Source of the DNA: Gammaproteobacteria bacterium
GTDB taxonomy: Bacteria; Pseudomonadota; Gammaproteobacteria; Nevskiales; Nevskiaceae
Reading direction: 5' to 3'
Assembly (NCBI GenBank): GCA_026398815.1
Contig: JAPLSA010000031.1
Coordinates: 1 to 64,000, forward strand
Length of the DNA stretch: 64,000 nt
The notes beneath the pieces are model-generated. The model searched no databases. It saw only the letters and a list, made by a program, of their open reading frames with translations, and had not been told where the DNA came from. A program made the position numbers and the translations under genes. Within the stretch, counting starts at the first letter, position 1; every line of letters starts with the position of its first letter. Of this stretch, positions 2,456 to 48,910 are shown piece by piece.

Positions 2456-4216
2456 ATGCCGCGCTTCCTTCTGCTGGTTTCCACTGCCCTGCTGATGTCG
2501 CTGCCGGCCCGCGCCGGTATCGACGTCCGGGTCAAGGGCCTGGGGCCGGACGAGCGCGACAACGCCTACGCCAAGCTGTCGATCCTCGAGTTCGCCAAGC
2601 GGACCGACGCCGACCAGGGCCACTACGACCAGGCCGACGTCGAACGCCTGTTTCGCCAGGGCGAACGCGAGATCCAGGAAGCCCTGCGGCCCTACGGCTG
2701 GTACAACGCCACGGTCACGACGAAGCTCAGCGGCAGCGCGCCGGACTGGGTTGCCGAGTACCGCGTCAACGCCGGCCCGTTGACCGCGATCAGCACCATC
2801 GACATCGAACTCACCGGTGAAGGCGCCGAGGAAGCGGCGCTGGTCCGCTACCGCAGCCGCACCTGGCCGCTGAAGCTCGGCGAGCGCATCAAGCACGAGG
2901 ACTACGAGGCACTGAAGACGCGCATCGTGCAGACCGCCTATAGCCTCGGCCTGCTCGACGCCAAGCTGACCCGCCGCGAGCTGCGCATCGACGTGCCGAA
3001 GAATTCCGCCGAAGTGCTGCTGACGCTCGACACCGGCCGCCGCTACTACTTCGGCGACGTCACCATCGTGCAGGACGGCGACAAGCTGCTGCGCGACGCC
3101 TTCCTGCGTCGTTACCTGACCTTCGAGCCCGGCGAGCCCTACGATCCGGCCAAGGTGCTCAGCACCCAGTTCGCGTTCAGCGATCTCGACTACTTCCAGA
3201 CCGTCGACATCGAAAGCCGGAAGGACGAAGCCACCGATGCCTCGCCGCGCATCCCGATGGTGATCTCGACCACCGAACGCGCGCCGCGCAGCTACCGCTT
3301 CGGGCTCGGCTTCGGCACCGACACCGGTCCACGCGCCTCGGTCGGCGCCGACTTCCGCCGTCTCAACACGCTGGGCCACAAGCTGCGCACCGATCTGCGG
3401 GTCTCGCAGCGCATCTCGACCGTGGTGGCCGAATACCGCATCCCGGTCGGCATCGTGCCCAGCGATTCGGTCAGCATCACCAGCCAGGCGCTGACTCAGG
3501 ACTTCAGCGACGTCAAGGAAACGCTGTACCGGATCGGCACCAGCTACAACCGGCGCGGCAAGCGCTGGCAGCGGCGCATCTATCTGGAATACACGTTCGA
3601 CGAGTACACCATCAAGGACAGCCCGCAGCGGCAATCTAAGCTGCTGGTGCCCGGCATCTCGATCGACCGCACCGAGGGCGACGACCCGATCTTCCCGCGC
3701 GCCGGCTGGTACGCCTTCGCCGACGCCCACGGCGGCAGCAACGCGCTGCTGTCCGACACCAATTTCGTGCAGGGCACCATCAAGCTGCGCGGCCTGCTGG
3801 AACTGCGCCGCGGCCTGCAGCTGCGGGTGCGTGCCGACCAGGGCGCCACCTGGGTCGGCAGCTTCGACAACCTGCCGCCTTCGCAGCGCTTCTTCGCCGG
3901 CGGCGACGGCAGTGTGCGCGGCTACTCGTTCCAGTCGCTGGGCCCGCGCGACGCCAACGGCCGCGTGATCGGCGGACGCTACCTGACCACCGCGAGCACC
4001 GAGCTGGACTGGTTCTTCCTGCGCGAATACGGCATCGCCGCGTTCGTCGACGCCGGCGGCGCGGATGACACGCCGCTGGTCGCGCTGAGCCTGGGCGCCG
4101 GGCTCGGCGTCCGCTACCGGGCCCCGTTCGGCGCCTTCGCGCTCGACCTCGCCCATCCCTTCGATGCCGACCAGTCGCCGGTGCGGCTGCATCTCGGCGT
4201 GCAGGTGGGCCTGTGA
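2456..4216 (+). CDS. tamA: Autotransporter assembly complex protein TamA (BamA/Omp85 family)
   Basis: Signal peptide, POTRA-like N-terminus, Omp85 barrel with GDGSVRGYSFQSLGPRD motif; directly upstream of tamB. Confidence 0.92.
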   Translation: MPRFLLLVSTALLMSLPARAGIDVRVKGLGPDERDNAYAKLSILEFAKRTDADQGHYDQADVERLFRQGEREIQEALRPYGWYNATVTTKLSGSAPDWVAEYRVNAGPLTAISTIDIELTGEGAEEAALVRYRSRTWPLKLGERIKHEDYEALKTRIVQTAYSLGLLDAKLTRRELRIDVPKNSAEVLLTLDTGRRYYFGDVTIVQDGDKLLRDAFLRRYLTFEPGEPYDPAKVLSTQFAFSDLDYFQTVDIESRKDEATDASPRIPMVISTTERAPRSYRFGLGFGTDTGPRASVGADFRRLNTLGHKLRTDLRVSQRISTVVAEYRIPVGIVPSDSVSITSQALTQDFSDVKETLYRIGTSYNRRGKRWQRRIYLEYTFDEYTIKDSPQRQSKLLVPGISIDRTEGDDPIFPRAGWYAFADAHGGSNALLSDTNFVQGTIKLRGLLELRRGLQLRVRADQGATWVGSFDNLPPSQRFFAGGDGSVRGYSFQSLGPRDANGRVIGGRYLTTASTELDWFFLREYGIAAFVDAGGADDTPLVALSLGAGLGVRYRAPFGAFALDLAHPFDADQSPVRLHLGVQVGL

Positions 4217-7200
4217 GCAGCGCCGCCGCCGCAGGCGCACCGCAGCCACCGCTGCCGCCAGCACGGCCGCGCCGCCGCTGGGGACGCTGGCTCGCCGTGG
4301 CCCTGCTGATCCCGGTGTTGCTGGTGTTGGTCGCCGTCGGCGCCGTGCTTGGCAGCGAACGCGGCCTGCGCTTCGGACTGGACCAGCTGGCCGCGCTCAC
4401 CGATGACGCGATCCACGTCGGCCGGGTCCGCGGCCGCCTGCTCGATGCCGTGGAGCTGCGCGAGGTCCGCTACACCAGCAGCGACGGCCTGCAGGTCAGC
4501 ATCGGCCGGGTTTCGCTGCGCCATCGGCCGCCGGCCCTGCTCGGCCGGCGTCTGCATGTCGAATCGCTGGCGGTCGACGGCCTCGATGTACGGCTGGCGC
4601 CACCGCCGCCGGTTCCCGAGCCGGAAACCCCGACCGACCTGCCGTCGCGACTGCCGTTCGACATCGTCATCGATGCGCTGGCGCTGACCGATTTCACCCT
4701 GCACGGCAGCGACGACCCGGCGACGCCGATCGTGGCACTGGCCCGCAGCACGCTGGTCGGCCGCTGGATCGGCGATGCCATCACCGTCAGCGCGCTCGAC
4801 ACCACCGGCCTGCCGCTGACCGGGGCCCTGCATGCCGAGACGCAGCTGTCGATGCGCGGCGCGCAGATCGATTTCGAGTCGCTCAAGCTCAGCGGCCCCG
4901 GACAGCTGCAGGCCAGCGGCCGGCTCGGGCTGGACCAGGTTGCCAGCGACCTGAAGCTCGCCTGGCAGCAGCTGCACTGGCCGCTGAATCTTGCCGACGG
5001 CACGCCGCCGCTGGCCGGCGATCTGGTCGGCCAGGCCACGTTCACCGGCAGCTTCGATGCCTATCGCTTCGCGCTCGACAGCACCGCCACGCTGCAGGAG
5101 TTCGCCGCCACGCTGTCGATGGCCGGCAGCGGCAGCCTGGAGCAGGTCCACCTCGACGCGCTGTCGCTCGATGCACTGCCGGTGGCGCTGGCCAGCGCCA
5201 CGACGCCGCGCAAGACGCAGCGGCAGCCCGGTTCGGTCAAGGCCAGCGGCACCGTCGCCTGGTCGCCGAAGCTGCTGGCGACGATCGAGGCGGAGTTCCG
5301 CCATGTCGACCCCGCGTGGTTCGTGGCCGATATCGCCGGCGACCTGAACGGCCGGCTCAGCAGTTCGACGACGATGGTCGGCGAGGAGCCGACGATCGCC
5401 TTCGACGCGCGCTTCGAACAATCCTCGCTGCGCGGCCAGCCGTTCGAGCTGCGCGCCAACGGCGTCACCGACACCCGTTCGGCCCGTCTGGAAGCGCTGA
5501 ACCTGAAGGCGGGCCACGGCAGTATCGATGCCCGTGGCACGGTCGGCTGGCAGCCGGCGCTGAACGTCGATGTCGAGGCCACCATCGCCCGGCTCAACCC
5601 GGCGATCGTGGCAGCGGACTGGCCAGGCGATCTGAACGGCAGCATCAAGGCACGCAACGACGACAGCATCGACGGCCGGCCGATCCGCTTCGAGGCGCTG
5701 ATCGACAAGTCGCGGTTGCGCAACTACCGCCTGCGGCTCGATACCGCCGGCGTCGCGCAGATCGACGACAACGGCGCCATCGTGACGCTCGACCGGGCGC
5801 GGCTGGATTCCGGCGGCACCACGCTGGATCTCAAGGGCCAGGTGACGCCGCCGTTCGCGATGACCGGCCGGCTGGACAGCCCGAACCTCGGCACGCTGCT
5901 GCCGGAGCTGGCCGGCCGAGCGACGATGAGCTTCGCGCTCGACGGCACCGTCGAGCAGCCGCACCTGGTGACCGACGGCAACCTGCGCGATTTCGCCTAC
6001 GGCGAGCAGACGCTGGCGCGCCTCGACTGGCAGGGCGACATCGACCCGAAGGTCGACAGCTCGCGGCTCAGCGTCGAGCTGCGCAATGCCCAGCTGGGCC
6101 TGCACATCGACAAGGTGTCGCTGCTGCTGACCGGGCTGGAGGTCTACCACCGGGTGCTGGTCGATGCGGTGACCGAACGCGGCAACGGCAAGCTCGGCCT
6201 CATCGGCGGCTTCGACCGGACCCGTGGCGAGTGGGGTGGCGAGCTGAACCAGCTCGAGCTGAGCCCGGAACGGATGTCAGCGTGGGCGCTCGACAAGCCG
6301 GCCGGCGTCCTGCTGGGCCAGAAGCGCCGGGCGCTGGAACCGGCCTGCCTGAACGGCAGCGACGGCCGCGCCTGCTTCAATCTCGAACAGAACGTGCTGG
6401 CCGACGGCGCCCGCATCGGCTGGAACATCGATCGCCTGCTGCTGGCGGCGCTGCAGCCGTTCCTGGGCCCGGACCTGAAGATCACCGGCAGCATCGATGG
6501 CGACGGCTTCATCAATTTTTCCGGCGGCGACCTGCAGCAGGCCAAGGCAGCGCTGAACCTCCGCGACACCACCATCGAGCTGCCGGACGCGCCGACCTAC
6601 CGGATCGAGACCGGTTCGGTGGTGGCCGACCAGGTCGACGGCCGGCTGGCCGCCAAGGCCGACCTGAAGCTGTCCGGTGCGGCGCTGGCGGCGGACGTCA
6701 CGGCAGCGCCCGGCGTCAACTTCATGGAACGCGCGCTCGGCGGCACCATCCGGCTCGATATCCCGAGCCTCGGCTTCATCGAACCGCTGCTCCCGCAGCT
6801 CGACAAGCTCGGCGGCCGGCTGGCCGGCGACATCGCGCTGTCCGGCACCGTGGGCGACCCGCGCTATACCGGCGACATCCGGCTCAGCGACGGCCAGGCG
6901 CGGCTGGTGGTGGCCGGCATCGACCTGACCGAACTGAACCTGTTGCTGAAGACGCGCGGCAGCGATCCGCTGGCGCTGGAAGGCAGCGTCAAGTCCGGCG
7001 GCGGCCAGCTGAAGATCAGCGGCGAGGTGAATCCGTACAGCTTGCCGCTGACCGCCGACATCAAGGTCAACGGCAGCGGCTTCCAGGCGATGAACACGCC
7101 GCAGGCGCGTGCCTGGATCGACGCCGACTTGCAGCTGCTGCGCAGCGCCGAGGGCGCGCGCCTGAGCGGCGAGCTGGGCGTGCCGCGCGCCGACATCACG

Positions 7201-8214
7201 CCGAAAGGCCTCGGCGGCGGCGGTGTCGATGCCAGCAGCGATCAGGTACTGGTCGGCGTGGCGGTGCCGGAGAAGGAACCGCCGCTGAAGGTGACCGTCG
7301 ACCTGAAGCTGACGCTCGGCGACCGGGTGATGATCGAAGGCTTCGGGCTGAAGACGCGCATCGAAGGCGGCGTCAACGTCAGCCAGCGGCCGGGCTTCGA
7401 TGCGATGGGCCGCGGCGAGCTGCGGCTGGTCGATGGCCGCTACCAGGCCTATGGCCAGGACCTGAGCATCGAGACCGGCCGACTGATCTTCAGCGGCGGC
7501 CCGGTGACCACGCCGGCCGTCGACCTGTACGCAACGCGGCAGCCGCGCGAGGACATCAAGGTCGGCGTGCGGGTGCGCGGCACCCTGGCCAAGCCGGAAC
7601 TGAGCCTGCAGTCGAGCCCGAGCCTGCCGCGCGAACAGCAGCTGTCCTGGCTGGTGCTCGGCCGCTCGCTGGAAAACAGCTCGACGCAGGACCGCAGCAT
7701 GGTGTCCAGCGCCGCCCTCAGCCTCGGCCTTGGCGGCGGCGATTACCTGGCCGGGCTGATCGGCAAGAAGGTCGGGCTCGACGAGCTGTCGGTCGGCAAT
7801 ACGGCCGCCAACAACTCCGAAGTGGCCGCCAATGCCCAGAGCATCAGCGGCGCCCAGGGCGGCGCCGGTGCCGTCGATGCCGGCGCCCAGGCCGCGCAGC
7901 TGACGCTCGGCAAGTACCTGACGCCGAAACTGTTCGTCAGCTACGGCATCAGCCTGTTCCAGGAGGGCTACACGTTCCGCATGCTGTACACGCTCGGCCA
8001 CGGCTTCAAGCTGTCGACCGAGTCCGGCACCGCCAGCGGCGGCGATGTCATCTACACCACCGAGCGCGGCAAGAAGACCACCGACACGCCATCACGGCCG
8101 AGCCGAGATGAAGTGCCCTCGGCCGGCCCCGCACCGGACCCGACGCGCAGCCCGGACGCAACTCCGGCACCAGACCCGGTGGTGGAACCGCAACGCGAGC
8201 CGGCGACGCCGTAA
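4213..8214 (+). CDS. tamB: Translocation/assembly module protein TamB
   Basis: 1333 aa, N-terminal TM, C-terminal DUF490/TamB domain (QLSWLVLGRSLE...LTLGKYLTPKLFVSYGISLFQ); 4-bp overlap with tamA. Confidence 0.92.
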   Translation: MSSAAAAGAPQPPLPPARPRRRWGRWLAVALLIPVLLVLVAVGAVLGSERGLRFGLDQLAALTDDAIHVGRVRGRLLDAVELREVRYTSSDGLQVSIGRVSLRHRPPALLGRRLHVESLAVDGLDVRLAPPPPVPEPETPTDLPSRLPFDIVIDALALTDFTLHGSDDPATPIVALARSTLVGRWIGDAITVSALDTTGLPLTGALHAETQLSMRGAQIDFESLKLSGPGQLQASGRLGLDQVASDLKLAWQQLHWPLNLADGTPPLAGDLVGQATFTGSFDAYRFALDSTATLQEFAATLSMAGSGSLEQVHLDALSLDALPVALASATTPRKTQRQPGSVKASGTVAWSPKLLATIEAEFRHVDPAWFVADIAGDLNGRLSSSTTMVGEEPTIAFDARFEQSSLRGQPFELRANGVTDTRSARLEALNLKAGHGSIDARGTVGWQPALNVDVEATIARLNPAIVAADWPGDLNGSIKARNDDSIDGRPIRFEALIDKSRLRNYRLRLDTAGVAQIDDNGAIVTLDRARLDSGGTTLDLKGQVTPPFAMTGRLDSPNLGTLLPELAGRATMSFALDGTVEQPHLVTDGNLRDFAYGEQTLARLDWQGDIDPKVDSSRLSVELRNAQLGLHIDKVSLLLTGLEVYHRVLVDAVTERGNGKLGLIGGFDRTRGEWGGELNQLELSPERMSAWALDKPAGVLLGQKRRALEPACLNGSDGRACFNLEQNVLADGARIGWNIDRLLLAALQPFLGPDLKITGSIDGDGFINFSGGDLQQAKAALNLRDTTIELPDAPTYRIETGSVVADQVDGRLAAKADLKLSGAALAADVTAAPGVNFMERALGGTIRLDIPSLGFIEPLLPQLDKLGGRLAGDIALSGTVGDPRYTGDIRLSDGQARLVVAGIDLTELNLLLKTRGSDPLALEGSVKSGGGQLKISGEVNPYSLPLTADIKVNGSGFQAMNTPQARAWIDADLQLLRSAEGARLSGELGVPRADITPKGLGGGGVDASSDQVLVGVAVPEKEPPLKVTVDLKLTLGDRVMIEGFGLKTRIEGGVNVSQRPGFDAMGRGELRLVDGRYQAYGQDLSIETGRLIFSGGPVTTPAVDLYATRQPREDIKVGVRVRGTLAKPELSLQSSPSLPREQQLSWLVLGRSLENSSTQDRSMVSSAALSLGLGGGDYLAGLIGKKVGLDELSVGNTAANNSEVAANAQSISGAQGGAGAVDAGAQAAQLTLGKYLTPKLFVSYGISLFQEGYTFRMLYTLGHGFKLSTESGTASGGDVIYTTERGKKTTDTPSRPSRDEVPSAGPAPDPTRSPDATPAPDPVVEPQREPATP

Positions 8215-8415
8215 GTCTGGGCTCGAAGCGAGTGGGTGTGCTCAGGCTGTCGGCAAACCCTTATCGCCAAGGCTGCGGAGGTCGAATGACGCGAAGTCTG
8301 GCACACCGCTTACACGGGGAACGCCTCGCGCTTGCCAAAAGGCTCAGCAACGCTTCCTGAGCGTGCAGTGCCACACACACAATGGGCTCAGCGCATTCAT
8401 TGTTGCGGCTTCGTT

Positions 8416-8553
8416 CGCCAGATTATCCTGCAGCCAACAGGCAAGAACATTCCTGATGAGAATCAGTCTATTGACTAAATCCCGCCAGAATATCTCGTAC
8501 ATTTCGCCAGATTATCGTGCGTTTCGTCACGATAACGTGGCAGGTTATCGTGC
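8416..8553. repeat. Cluster of CGCCAGATTATCGTGC-type repeats (direct and inverted) upstream of the ATPase/DUF4435 gene
   Basis: cgccagattatcctgc (8416-8431), cgccagaatatctcgtac (8483-8500), cgccagattatcgtgc (8505-8520), cacgataac (8528-8536, inverted), ggcaggttatcgtgc (8539-8553). Confidence 0.7.
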
Positions 8554-8576
8554 ATTTTTGCAGCCTAATTGTAGTT

Positions 8577-10205
8577 ATGCCCCATTCCGAGAACCATTCT
8601 GCTATGGCTGAAAAACGCACGTTGACCCTACCGCGCATCAACGGCGCAACGGAATCCATAGAGACAACACAAAGCCTGCTATTCATCGGCGCGAATGGCT
8701 CGGGCAAAACTCGCCTAGGCACATGGATTGAAATCACTTCGCCTCAGCGCCAGTTGGTTCATCGAATTTCTGCACAGAAATCGTTATCGATGCCAGATTC
8801 AACGACGCCAGTTTCAATTGAAATCGCAGAGCGAAGCCTCCTATTCGGCGACGCAGGCTGGAATCATCAGCACAAAATTCATAAGTGGAGTAACAAGCCA
8901 GCCACTACGCTCCTTAACGATTATGAGAAGCTGATGGTCTATTTGTTCTCGGACGAAACTGAGGCAAATGCAAAATTCAAGATCGAAGTAAAGACGTGTA
9001 CGGCGCGTGTTGAGCCTCCAATAACAAAGATCGACCTTGTCAAGGAGGTGTGGGAAAAAATTCTTCCCCACCGTGAGCTCGTAATAGGTGGCTTAAGGGT
9101 TCAGACGCGCGTCAAGGGTCAAGCCGAGAAAATCTACAATTCATCGGAAATGAGCGATGGCGAGCGTGTCATCTTCTATCTGATTGGGCAATGTCTGGCT
9201 GCTCCAAAGAACGGAATCATTGTTATCGATGAACCGGAATTGCATCTTCATAAGTCCGTGCAGGCACCGCTTTGGGCTGAAATAGAAAAGCTAAGGAGTG
9301 ATTGCCTGTTTGTATATCTGACGCACGATGTTGATTTTGCTGCTGCACAAAATGGGGCAACACGAATCTGGCTGAAGTCTTTTGATGGCACATCGTGGGA
9401 TTGGGAGCCTGTCAATCCCGATGAGAGTCTTCCTGACGATCTTCTGCTCGAAGTCTTGGGAAGCAGAAAACCGGTCGTATTCGTCGAAGGAGATAACGGT
9501 AGCCACGATGTCTCCTTGTATCGTGAAATTCTCCCAAACTTTCTCGTTATTCCAAGAGGAAGTTGTTCACAAGTCATCCTCTCGGTTAAAGCGCTAAAGG
9601 CCAACGCGCAGCTACATCACCTCAGTGTATTTGGCATTGTGGATCGCGATAGAAGGGTTCCTCAAGAAATCGCCGCTCTAGAGGCAGACTCAATCTTTGT
9701 CCTCACGGTCGCAGAAGTTGAAAATCTCTTCTGCACGGAGGAGGTAATAAAGATCGCTAGCAAGAGGCTTTCGCGCGATCCGGTCGCTGACTTTCAGAAG
9801 GTCTCCGCTGAGATATTCAAGCGACTTCAACAGGAGCTAGATACACAGATTTCTCTGCGCGTCGCAAGTGAAATCAAGTTTCAACTCGGTATGTTTGATC
9901 AAAATACCAAAGGAGAAAGCGCGCTGTCTGGTGCGCTAACCGCCCTTGCGCAGGGCATTGACGTGAAACAGCTCTATTCGACATTCTCGGCCAGCTTTTC
10001 GGAGATCATTGCCAGTGGCAACTATGAAATGTTGCTGAGCACATACAACCGCAAATCGCTAGCGAATCAGGCTGGCGGGGCTCTAGGTTTGAAGAACGGC
10101 GAACTGCCTGAATTGATCCTCAGGTTAGCCAGGGGCGACTGCCGCGACGAACTCCGTTCAGCATTGAAGAAGTACTTTGGAAACTTTGGTACTCATGTGG
10201 CATAA
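8577..10205 (+). CDS. Single-chain AAA/ABC-type ATPase with C-terminal DUF4435 (TOPRIM-like) domain; candidate fused PARIS (AriA-AriB) anti-phage protein
   Basis: Walker A FIGANGSGKTRLG, signature SDGERVIFYL, Walker B GIIVIDEPELHLHKS, LTHDVDF switch; then VVFVEGDNGSHDVSLYREIL, FGIVDRDRR and VAEVENLFCTEEV motifs typical of DUF4435. Start codon uncertain (ORF opens at 8517; ATG also at 8577 and 8604). Confidence 0.85.
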   Translation: MPHSENHSAMAEKRTLTLPRINGATESIETTQSLLFIGANGSGKTRLGTWIEITSPQRQLVHRISAQKSLSMPDSTTPVSIEIAERSLLFGDAGWNHQHKIHKWSNKPATTLLNDYEKLMVYLFSDETEANAKFKIEVKTCTARVEPPITKIDLVKEVWEKILPHRELVIGGLRVQTRVKGQAEKIYNSSEMSDGERVIFYLIGQCLAAPKNGIIVIDEPELHLHKSVQAPLWAEIEKLRSDCLFVYLTHDVDFAAAQNGATRIWLKSFDGTSWDWEPVNPDESLPDDLLLEVLGSRKPVVFVEGDNGSHDVSLYREILPNFLVIPRGSCSQVILSVKALKANAQLHHLSVFGIVDRDRRVPQEIAALEADSIFVLTVAEVENLFCTEEVIKIASKRLSRDPVADFQKVSAEIFKRLQQELDTQISLRVASEIKFQLGMFDQNTKGESALSGALTALAQGIDVKQLYSTFSASFSEIIASGNYEMLLSTYNRKSLANQAGGALGLKNGELPELILRLARGDCRDELRSALKKYFGNFGTHVA

Positions 10206-10268
10206 CCCTGCGGTCCACCGGACGCTGCGCGATAAAGCCGCGCAGCGCCGGTGACCTCCACGTTAGAC
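10200..10268 (+). mobile_element. Integron attC recombination site
   Basis: R'' GCATAAC and R' GTTAGAC; arms GGTC(c)ACCGG(a)CGCTGCGCG / CGCGCAGCGCCGGTGACC pair perfectly except two extrahelical bases (G and T on the bottom strand), 7-nt loop ATAAAGC, 5-nt unpaired spacers on each side; the stop codon of the preceding ORF lies in R''. Confidence 0.88.
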
Positions 10269-10271
10269 GGC

Positions 10272-10488
10272 ATGAAGACCAGTTCTTGACTGCTCGGCAT
10301 CGTCGTAGGCGCACTAGTTCCTGCATCGGTTGGAACAGGCGTGATTTGCCTCCTGGATTCCTACTCCACCTCTTTGGGGGCACATGGCTGGTCGCTGTCC
10401 TAGTCTGCCTTGCTCATGCCGCCACTCTTGGCGCACCAGTCTTGTGGTTGCTTCATCGCTCTGCCCAGCTGACCTCGACGAGCGCGGT
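10272..10488 (+). pseudogene. Decayed second gene cassette encoding a small two-TM protein
   Basis: ATG 4 nt after attC; MKTSS*LLGIVVGALVPASVGTGVICLLDSYSTS then +1-type shift to LVAVLVCLAHAATLGAPVLWLLHR; in-frame TGA at 10287 and a frameshift. Confidence 0.5.
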
Positions 10489-10510
10489 AGGGCGGGTCGA
10501 GACCCGCCGC
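10484..10510. repeat. REP-like palindrome GGCGGGTC-GA-GACCCGCC
   Basis: 8-bp perfect stem with 2-nt loop in a non-coding segment. Confidence 0.6.
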
Positions 10511-10548
10511 GTTACCGAATGGAATCAATTCCGCGGCGATCTTTTACC

Positions 10549-10616
10549 GCGTAAGGCACACACCGCGGCGTGCCGCGTCGCTGCGTCTTTGGCGACAGCG
10601 GCCGTGTGCGTTAGGC
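10549..10616 (+). mobile_element. Degenerate attC-like site
   Basis: Right end GTTAGGC fits GTTRRRY; left GCGTAAGGCACAC pairs with GTGTGCGTTAGGC with two mismatches; internal arms imperfect. Confidence 0.35.
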
Positions 10617-10684
10617 GGGCAGTAGCGCATCGCTCGGATACAGCGGCGCGATCCGGAGCGAGGCTATCGCCGCGGATGAACGAT

Positions 10685-10711
10685 CCCGGATTTCGCTGCG
10701 CTCTATCCGGG
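10685..10711. repeat. REP-like inverted repeat CCCGGAT...ATCCGGG
   Basis: 7-bp stem around tcgctgcgctct in non-coding DNA. Confidence 0.55.
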
Positions 10712-10826
10712 CTACGGTTCTGGCGAGCGACCGGCACCGAGCAACCGGCCAGCCCGCCGGCTCACACCCCGAAAAGCAGCGCGTTCGTTACCGGCGAACG
10801 TCCTGCCGCCTCGCGCTCGCGCCGCC

Positions 10827-11567
10827 TCAGGCCAGCACCCGCCCGAGCCACGCGGAGATGTCATCGATCTCCTCGGCGCAGACGGCATGGGCCATCGGGT
10901 AGTCGTGCCATTCGACGTTCATGCCCCAGCTTTTCAGGCCGTCGCGGCTGTCGGTGCCCATCTTCAGCGGCAGCACCGGATCGACCCGGCCGTGGCACAT
11001 GAGCACCGGCGTGGCCTTGGCGGCGTCGGTCAGTTCCTTCGGCAGCGTGTCGTGCAGCGGCAGATAGGTGGACAGCGCCATCGCGCCGGCCAGCGGTTCG
11101 GCCAGGCGGCAGACCGCGTGCAGGGTGATCGCGCCGCCCTGCGAGAAGCCGGCGATCACCGTGCGCTTCGCGGCAATGCCGGCCGTGCGCTGTTCGGCGA
11201 CGATCCTCATCACCGTGGCCGCCGATTCGCGGATGCCGGCGTCGTCCTGCAGGTCGCTGCGGGTCAGGCTCTTGATGTCGTACCAGGCGCGCATCCGCAT
11301 GCCGCCGTTCAGGGTCACCGGGCGCACCGGCGCGTGCGGGAAGATGAAGCGCACCTGGCGCTGGGCCGGCAAGCGCAGTTCCGGGACGATCGGCACGAAA
11401 TCGTGGCCATCGGCGCCGAGGCCGTGCAGCCAGATCACTACGGCGTCGGCCGGCTGGGCGGGTTCGACGATGACGGCATCAGCGGTTTCGCGGGTCTTCA
11501 AGCGGAGGCTTCCGGTGGACAGTGGATCGGCGCCGGCGATTGTGTCGGCGCCCGGGGCCTGCGGCAA
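10827..11567 (-). CDS. Carboxylesterase / phospholipase family alpha/beta hydrolase
   Basis: VIWLHGLGADGHDFVPIVPEL, GFSQGGAI nucleophile elbow, CHGRVDPVLP, MAHAVC. Confidence 0.9.
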   Translation of the reverse strand: MPQAPGADTIAGADPLSTGSLRLKTRETADAVIVEPAQPADAVVIWLHGLGADGHDFVPIVPELRLPAQRQVRFIFPHAPVRPVTLNGGMRMRAWYDIKSLTRSDLQDDAGIRESAATVMRIVAEQRTAGIAAKRTVIAGFSQGGAITLHAVCRLAEPLAGAMALSTYLPLHDTLPKELTDAAKATPVLMCHGRVDPVLPLKMGTDSRDGLKSWGMNVEWHDYPMAHAVCAEEIDDISAWLGRVLA

Positions 11568-48521: not shown

Positions 48522-48589
48522 CTGGAGTCTCCCGTGGCCTGCGTCCCCGCAAGCGCACTGATCGGAATACCTGCACGCGGATGCATGCA

Positions 48590-48815
48590 GACCCGTTCCA
48601 GGCCGGTCTCCGGACTCATGGGCGAAGGCGCGATGCCGCGCGTGCCTTCCTTCGACGCCTTCCCGGATCGGGACACGATCCAGTGGCGGTGGGCCGAAGC
48701 ACTCCCATCTACCGTTGCGGGGGCAGTGCCGGGCTTGTCGATCCCGCGTGGGGGGCGACGCACCGGCTTCCCGTTTAACCCTGACACCGTGTCGAGCGGG
48801 GTTCAGGGCACCTGC
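48590..48815 (-). promoter_or_regulatory. Cobalamin (AdoCbl) riboswitch upstream of btuB
   Basis: Reverse-strand conserved blocks: GGCCGGTCTCCGGACTCATGGGCGAAGG, GCCTTCCCGGATCGG..CAGTGGC, TACCGTTGCGGGGGCAGTGCCGG, GCACCGGCTTCCCGTTTAACCC (as read on + strand). Confidence 0.92.
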
Positions 48816-48910
48816 GAACGGCAATATGGTATCGCACCGTACGAATTGCCTGCCGGGCGGGCCGCCGGGCACGGTTATCATTCGCCCCCGCGTTGCCCTG
48901 GAGTCCGCGC

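Follow-up and report, generated by a model that had tools for sequence, protein, structure and literature searches.

How does a gene closed by an integron-type recombination site come to lie where no working integrase gene adjoins it? This question is posed by the first 64,000 nucleotides of contig JAPLSA010000031.1 (assembly GCA_026398815.1; hereafter the window), from a gammaproteobacterium of the family Nevskiaceae, order Nevskiales, in which an ATPase/DUF4435 gene is followed directly by an attC-like hairpin. A first-pass annotation had described this gene as a defence-like mobile cassette in a locus resembling a cluster of attC sites lacking an integron integrase (CALIN). The genome (G000; the window locus is C11) comprises 4.3 Mb in 32 contigs and is 95.6% complete, and on another of its contigs, C29, it carries an intact integron integrase gene, intI. 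We consider it probable that the locus is an integron docking platform without an integrase, in a genome where one integrase serves many docking sites in trans.

Both recombination junctions of the cassette

The window aligns from 8399 to 8576 with the 5' end of intI and the attI site of C29, and the alignment ends exactly at GTAGTT; the window therefore holds an attI, with the crossover given in Table 1, and upstream of it a decayed piece of intI of about 60 bp. The intI remnant gives a weak protein match over amino acids 1-35 (E 0.064), and model R1 scores the attI at E 2.3e-24, with the caveat that the window attI sequence is itself part of R1. The site presumably resembles the attI1 of class 1 integrons, in having CCTAA before the crossover and direct repeats. 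At the 5' junction, GTTATGC is the exact complement, with no mismatches, of the R'' motif GCATAAC 1.63 kb downstream, which explains both cassette junctions, and none of the 22 other GTTRRRY sites of the window put to the same test had such a partner. At the level of sequence, both recombination junctions and a truncated intI can be recognised here. As in a complete integron an attI heads the array, while of the intI that would adjoin it only the 5' end remains. The earlier statement that the window has no integrase is right as regards a working gene and overlooked this intI end and a whole attI.

The bottom strand of the attC forms a stem of 18 pairs (9+5+4) capped by a 7-nt loop, with one T and one G left extrahelical, at an energy of -24.8 kcal/mol against a shuffle mean of -14.1 (sd 2.04, z -5.2), none of 200 shuffles being equally stable. 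Five of the seven positions of its R'' (GCATAAC) can pair with R' (GTTAGAC), and the stop codon of the upstream open reading frame (TAA, 10203-10205) falls within R''. A strict attC filter run over both strands of the 64 kb returned this hairpin as its sole attC-like match; coordinates, pairing, extrahelical bases, loop and stop codon thus agree with those first described. The same filter gave 111 matches in 100 dinucleotide shuffles of the window, 13 of them of equal or greater strength, and an Rfam scan of the window found no attC at gathering score. Since a hairpin of such strength arises by chance, the case for an attC draws on other evidence: chance is excluded by the complementarity of R'' to the attI junction, by the single open reading frame that fills the cassette, and by a second attC in the genome that is 86% identical to this one. 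The hairpin is a real attC that closes the gene cassette.

Behind the attC crossover, positions 10263-10480 begin like a second cassette (GTTAGACGGCATGAAGACC), the frame of which, by eye, breaks within a few codons; no matching attC was found behind this start, and the segment is probably a decayed cassette. A further GC-rich inverted repeat at 10545-10620, with GTTAGGC at its end, may represent a degenerate attC or else some dispersed repeat. The inverted repeat inside the attI (Table 1) did not score above the shuffle mean in the terminator scan, and is either a pair of integrase boxes or a hairpin resembling a terminator; by eye, the type B attI described below likewise contains an inverted repeat.

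Table 1. Coordinates of the cassette, its recombination sites and its flanking genes in the window
Feature	Coordinates	Strand	Remarks and basis
tamB, left flank of insertion	4213..8214	+	Pfam TamB; adjoins hydrolase gene in 8 relatives
intI 5'-end remnant (about first 20 codons)	8399..8459	-	Start ATG now ATC; remaining gene absent; gapped alignment with C29 intI
attI	8489..8576	+	Crossover G8574^T8575; 97% over 75 bp with C29 attI
Inverted repeat inside attI	8528..8552	+	CACGATAAC...GTTATCGTG, then ATTTTT; terminator scan; repeats visible in alignment
Integrated gene cassette, 1,688 bp	8575..10262	+	attI crossover to attC crossover
Fused ariAB (PARIS) gene	8577..10205	+	Stop TAA inside R''; alternative ATG 8604
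attC of PARIS cassette	10200..10268	+	Crossover G10262^T10263; folds and attC scans
Alpha/beta hydrolase gene, right flank of insertion	10827..11567	-	Pfam Abhydrolase_2

One integrase and a family of attI sites

The search of the genome for intI, which had been proposed as a check, returned a single integron integrase (C29:1738-2715), again the one match at E<=1e-20 when its own protein was the query. It scores 476 bits against TIGR02249 (cut-off 265) and 398-399 bits against NF011946, below the equivalog cut-off of 435. Of 85 genomes of the order, 57 have an integron integrase, and several have two. Against its one intI, G000 displays eight attI or attI-like sites. Altogether we count 44 attI, which fall into three sequence types and come from two families; 15 adjoin an intI and 29 do not, and 16 of these 29 orphans are followed by an attC-closed cassette.

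Type A comprises 18 attI in the 18 genomes of the genus, found by DNA and model searches. Six lie in G000 (C11, C29, C23, C18, C26 and C1), five in G003, four in G007 and one each in G009, G012 and G015. Only G000 C29 and G003 C27 stand beside an intI, leaving 16 orphans, seven of them with an attC-closed cassette: R'' matches the junction exactly in C11, C23, G003 C16 and G007 C1, C4 and C2b, and with one mismatch in C18. The orphan of G012 C20 is followed by a truncated attC. Run over 58 genomes of the family, R1 found sites in six, all in the window's genus, so type A is limited to that genus. Weak and minus-strand matches of a second model, R2 (E 5e-4 to 0.6), were left out of the counts, G014 C2:242244 (E 1e-3) being one of them; G014, a genome with two partial intI, has two weak attI-like matches, this one and C2:524097 (E 0.04).

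Types B and C differ in sequence from type A. A type B query from G008 found ten sites, four beside an intI and six without, including G000 C19 and C3; four of the six orphans have attC-closed cassettes behind them, as many as four in G008 C127 (1.5 kb downstream being read). Type C, from a genus of another family (14 genomes), gave 18 matches. Sixteen end at the junction, nine beside an intI and seven without, and five of the seven orphans have an attC whose R'' shows at most one mismatch; L176, which a contig end truncates, and L177, which is unrelated, do not reach the junction and were not counted. Among the genomes with type C sites is G445, a single contig with one intI (E<=1e-60) and two attI 148 kb apart. 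No integrase core was found upstream of the 22 orphans of types A and B (1.5-3.5 kb, E<=10), where there are scattered weak matches only, nor upstream of the seven type C orphans (about 1.5 kb, E<=1e-5).

Conservation of attI and of the DNA around it

G000 C23 and G009 C16 are the same locus, an orphan attI common to two species. In the flanking-gene bin the two have an identity of 0.79, which sinks to 0.49-0.50 from there to the attI and is 0.78 and 0.85 over the attI, with 19 of 60 positions alike after the junction, a footprint with a Fisher p of 1e-6. Between C11 and C29, 75 of 80 positions are identical in attI and 84 of 120 just upstream (5/80 vs 36/120 differing, p 3e-5). The orthologous intI platforms of C29 and G003 C27 display no step beside attI (0.93, 0.95, 0.96), and values of 0.64-0.69 appear further up, in the 5' intI. 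The orphan sites G015 C267 and G001 C9 also form one locus (95% upstream), although what follows the junction is unrelated (14 of 60 alike); since their attI agree at only about 0.63 and the intervening DNA cannot be aligned, this pair speaks less for selection. The pattern of attI conservation is consistent with upkeep by use in trans.

The cassette gene is assigned to fused PARIS

Its product matches the PADLOC model AriAB PDLC02982 with 683 bits (E 7.3e-206), residues 29-557 covering model positions 22-567 of 570. Pfam recognises AAA_21 (42.3 bits) and DUF4435 (64.2 bits), both above the threshold of at least 27 bits each used for two-gene PARIS (PMC9122126), and in an alignment with three relatives the Walker A, signature, Walker B, Toprim E and DxD motifs are all kept. 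These matches identify the cassette gene as a fused PARIS, a defence-family gene, in agreement with the defence-like character first assigned to it. A phmmer search against solved structures gave no match at E 0.01, a comparison of sequence only that is silent on fold. The protein has the same two domains and motifs, full-length, as the fused form of PARIS (AriA/AriB); the window gene differs in being an integron cassette, and its first ATG (8577) is built from the cassette's own R' bases.

Relatives at E<=1e-40 occur in six genomes besides G000, of 369 searched in the class, and further ones in 12 loci on viral contigs; 30 plasmid records were matched. In a scan of 18 other fused-PARIS loci no attC was found (six genome loci, 10 of the 12 viral loci and 2 of the 30 plasmid records, the filter differing slightly between the two scans; the viral loci L188 and L189, short matches, were excluded), so PARIS as a cassette is rare among its relatives. 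On the Paraburkholderia sabiae plasmid NZ_CP125297.1 (L190), a fused PARIS relative has a split PARIS-like pair, an AAA ATPase gene and a DUF4435 gene, immediately upstream of it.

Insertion site and other features of the window

The hydrolase gene was found in 17 of the 18 genomes of the genus, G000 counted. In 8 of the 16 relatives that have it (G007, G001, G012, G008, G015, G010, G014 and G017) tamB lies no more than about 150 bp from it, so that the insert is absent. The presence/absence comparison among sister genomes that had been suggested thus found a locus that is not fixed in all relatives, which supports a mobile cassette. The tamB-hydrolase gap is ambiguous in G013, and G002, G004, G005, G006 and G016 have no tamB end inside the 1.5 kb beside the hydrolase gene. 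In G003 C54 (L080) an attI lies in the gap that corresponds to window 8214-10827, in opposite orientation. G009 C12 (L065) has about 0.8 kb of extra DNA in the gap, by eye with an acetyltransferase-like gene. Elsewhere in the window, the sole Rfam match is a cobalamin riboswitch at 48584-48830 on the minus strand (99.7 bits, gathering score 31.5).

Discussion

The family of orphan attI, the absence of the insert from relatives, the two junctions and the truncated intI make up an anatomy that can be read in the genomes compared. From it we infer that the C29 integrase would bind dispersed attI in trans and insert cassettes by attI x attC recombination. Orphan platforms would most likely have begun as copies of an integron end (5' intI plus attI) from which intI was then lost, the attI most likely being kept because it is still useful. 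In the window platform, the ATPase half of PARIS would be expected, from what its family does, to sense a phage anti-restriction protein and unleash the tRNA-cutting Toprim half, with growth stopping as the result. We lean slightly towards the wider reading of a distributed integron, in which one IntI would serve many scattered attI modules, each with its own cassettes, and modules would spread to new loci, the docking site and not the integrase having multiplied in at least three attI lineages of the order.

Several observations weigh against service in trans. G000 is incomplete and a second intI could be missing from it, and the assembly of G007 contains four attI but lacks intI. The weaker members in G000 reach only E 2e-4 and 4e-4 (C26, C1) or 3e-4 and 2e-3 (C19, C3) with their models, R2 having been trained on C26 and C1. 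No attC was found at 8 of the 16 type A orphans (C26, C1, G003 C48, C10 and C54, G007 C2a, G009 C16, and G015 C325 at a contig end), among them G009 C16, which is half of the best footprint pair. Conservation of attI could stem from gene conversion between copies, the main alternative to selection. For the PARIS gene, no sigma-70-like promoter was recognised. Finally, attI lie in opposite directions in one gap in different species (C11 and G003 C54; G003 C10, L041, and G007 C4, L043), which simple loss of intI does not explain. One locus also holds two attI types, type A in G003 C48 (L039) and type B in G009 C18 (L125/L135). Either attI modules arrived repeatedly at favoured gaps, or platforms were inverted. 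No vehicle was found, and no clean common 5' end could be defined for the orphan modules.

The strongest rival, which we nevertheless hold unlikely, is that the locus is a dead relic of a once complete integron that has lost its intI by deletion, leaving an immobile PARIS cassette and a fossil attI. The short piece of intI left, the decayed look, by eye, of the second cassette and the several orphans with no remaining attC agree with this; the attI, however, is far better preserved than the DNA adjoining it, an intact integrase with a near-identical attI persists in the same genome, and orthologous orphan sites differ in the sequence behind attI. Less likely again is a mobile element, transposon-like or of another kind, that carries short attI-plus-cassette modules, the integrase being of little importance today. 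It would account for the use of one gap by attI of both orientations and of different types, and for the lack of an integrase core remnant at all 22 type A and B orphans; the C23 array (L003 15950-16024), moreover, ends by eye near the start of an IS3-type-transposase-like gene, at a contig end. Against a mobile element, neither a common boundary nor a target duplication or transposase was seen beside the orphans examined, the empty-site comparison covering the tamB-hydrolase gap.

Insertion of a free cassette by an integrase into a chromosomal site other than attI, which would leave a solitary attC, is known for integron integrases and has been proposed for CALINs (PMC8618304); it brings no attI, and the alignment that places an attI of about 88 bp and an intI remnant exactly at the junction contradicts it, so that we rejected it as very improbable. 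A chance hairpin behind an ordinary gene, although equally strong ones turn up in shuffled windows, is the least credible explanation and was rejected, being contradicted by the exact junction, the attI, the second attC and the empty site in relatives.

A docking platform served in trans stands close to several known arrangements. With sedentary chromosomal integrons it shares the attI/cassette/attC grammar and an intact intI elsewhere in the genome; unlike them it has no intI at the site, and there are several attI per genome, where published descriptions give an integron a single attI, next to its one intI (PMC3607928). With CALINs it shares a cassette that lacks a neighbouring intI and is possibly mobilised in trans. 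The CALIN-like label first given to the locus does not fit, as CALINs have at least two attC without a nearby intI (PMC12444791), while the window has one attC together with its own attI and an intI remnant. These last two point to an attI platform whose integrase was lost, rather than to cassettes at a random site. The origin of CALINs has been attributed to off-target insertion, loss of intI or rearrangement (PMC8618304). The Xanthomonas CALINs away from ilvD, which about half of the genomes have, are likewise arrays without an integrase at conserved loci, with no attI reported in the sections of that work consulted (PMC12444791). Delta-attI-type cassettes of class 1 and 2 integrons also carry attI sequence outside its usual place; in them an attI fragment replaces the attC at the far end (PMC12901181), whereas here attI stands at the head of separate platforms in the chromosome. 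Integron cassettes with defence genes have been published (Darracq 2025; Kieffer 2025; Getz 2025; via the review PMC12409362), and the main point of the first-pass annotation is therefore a further case of a known phenomenon; PARIS is not named in the parts of that review consulted, and the window platform differs in having no integrase. What departs from these systems is that single genomes, and this in more than one lineage, contain several attI that lack intI and have cassettes behind them, and a literature search of open-licence papers found none on several such copies per genome.

PARIS thus joins the defence genes able to travel as cassettes. Should attI sites multiply and be served in trans, a genome would have several independent first cassette positions, and our view of cassette expression, of capacity and of the origin of integrase-less arrays would change. 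Copies of attI ahead of integrase-less arrays at conserved loci would provide a testable cause for such arrays.
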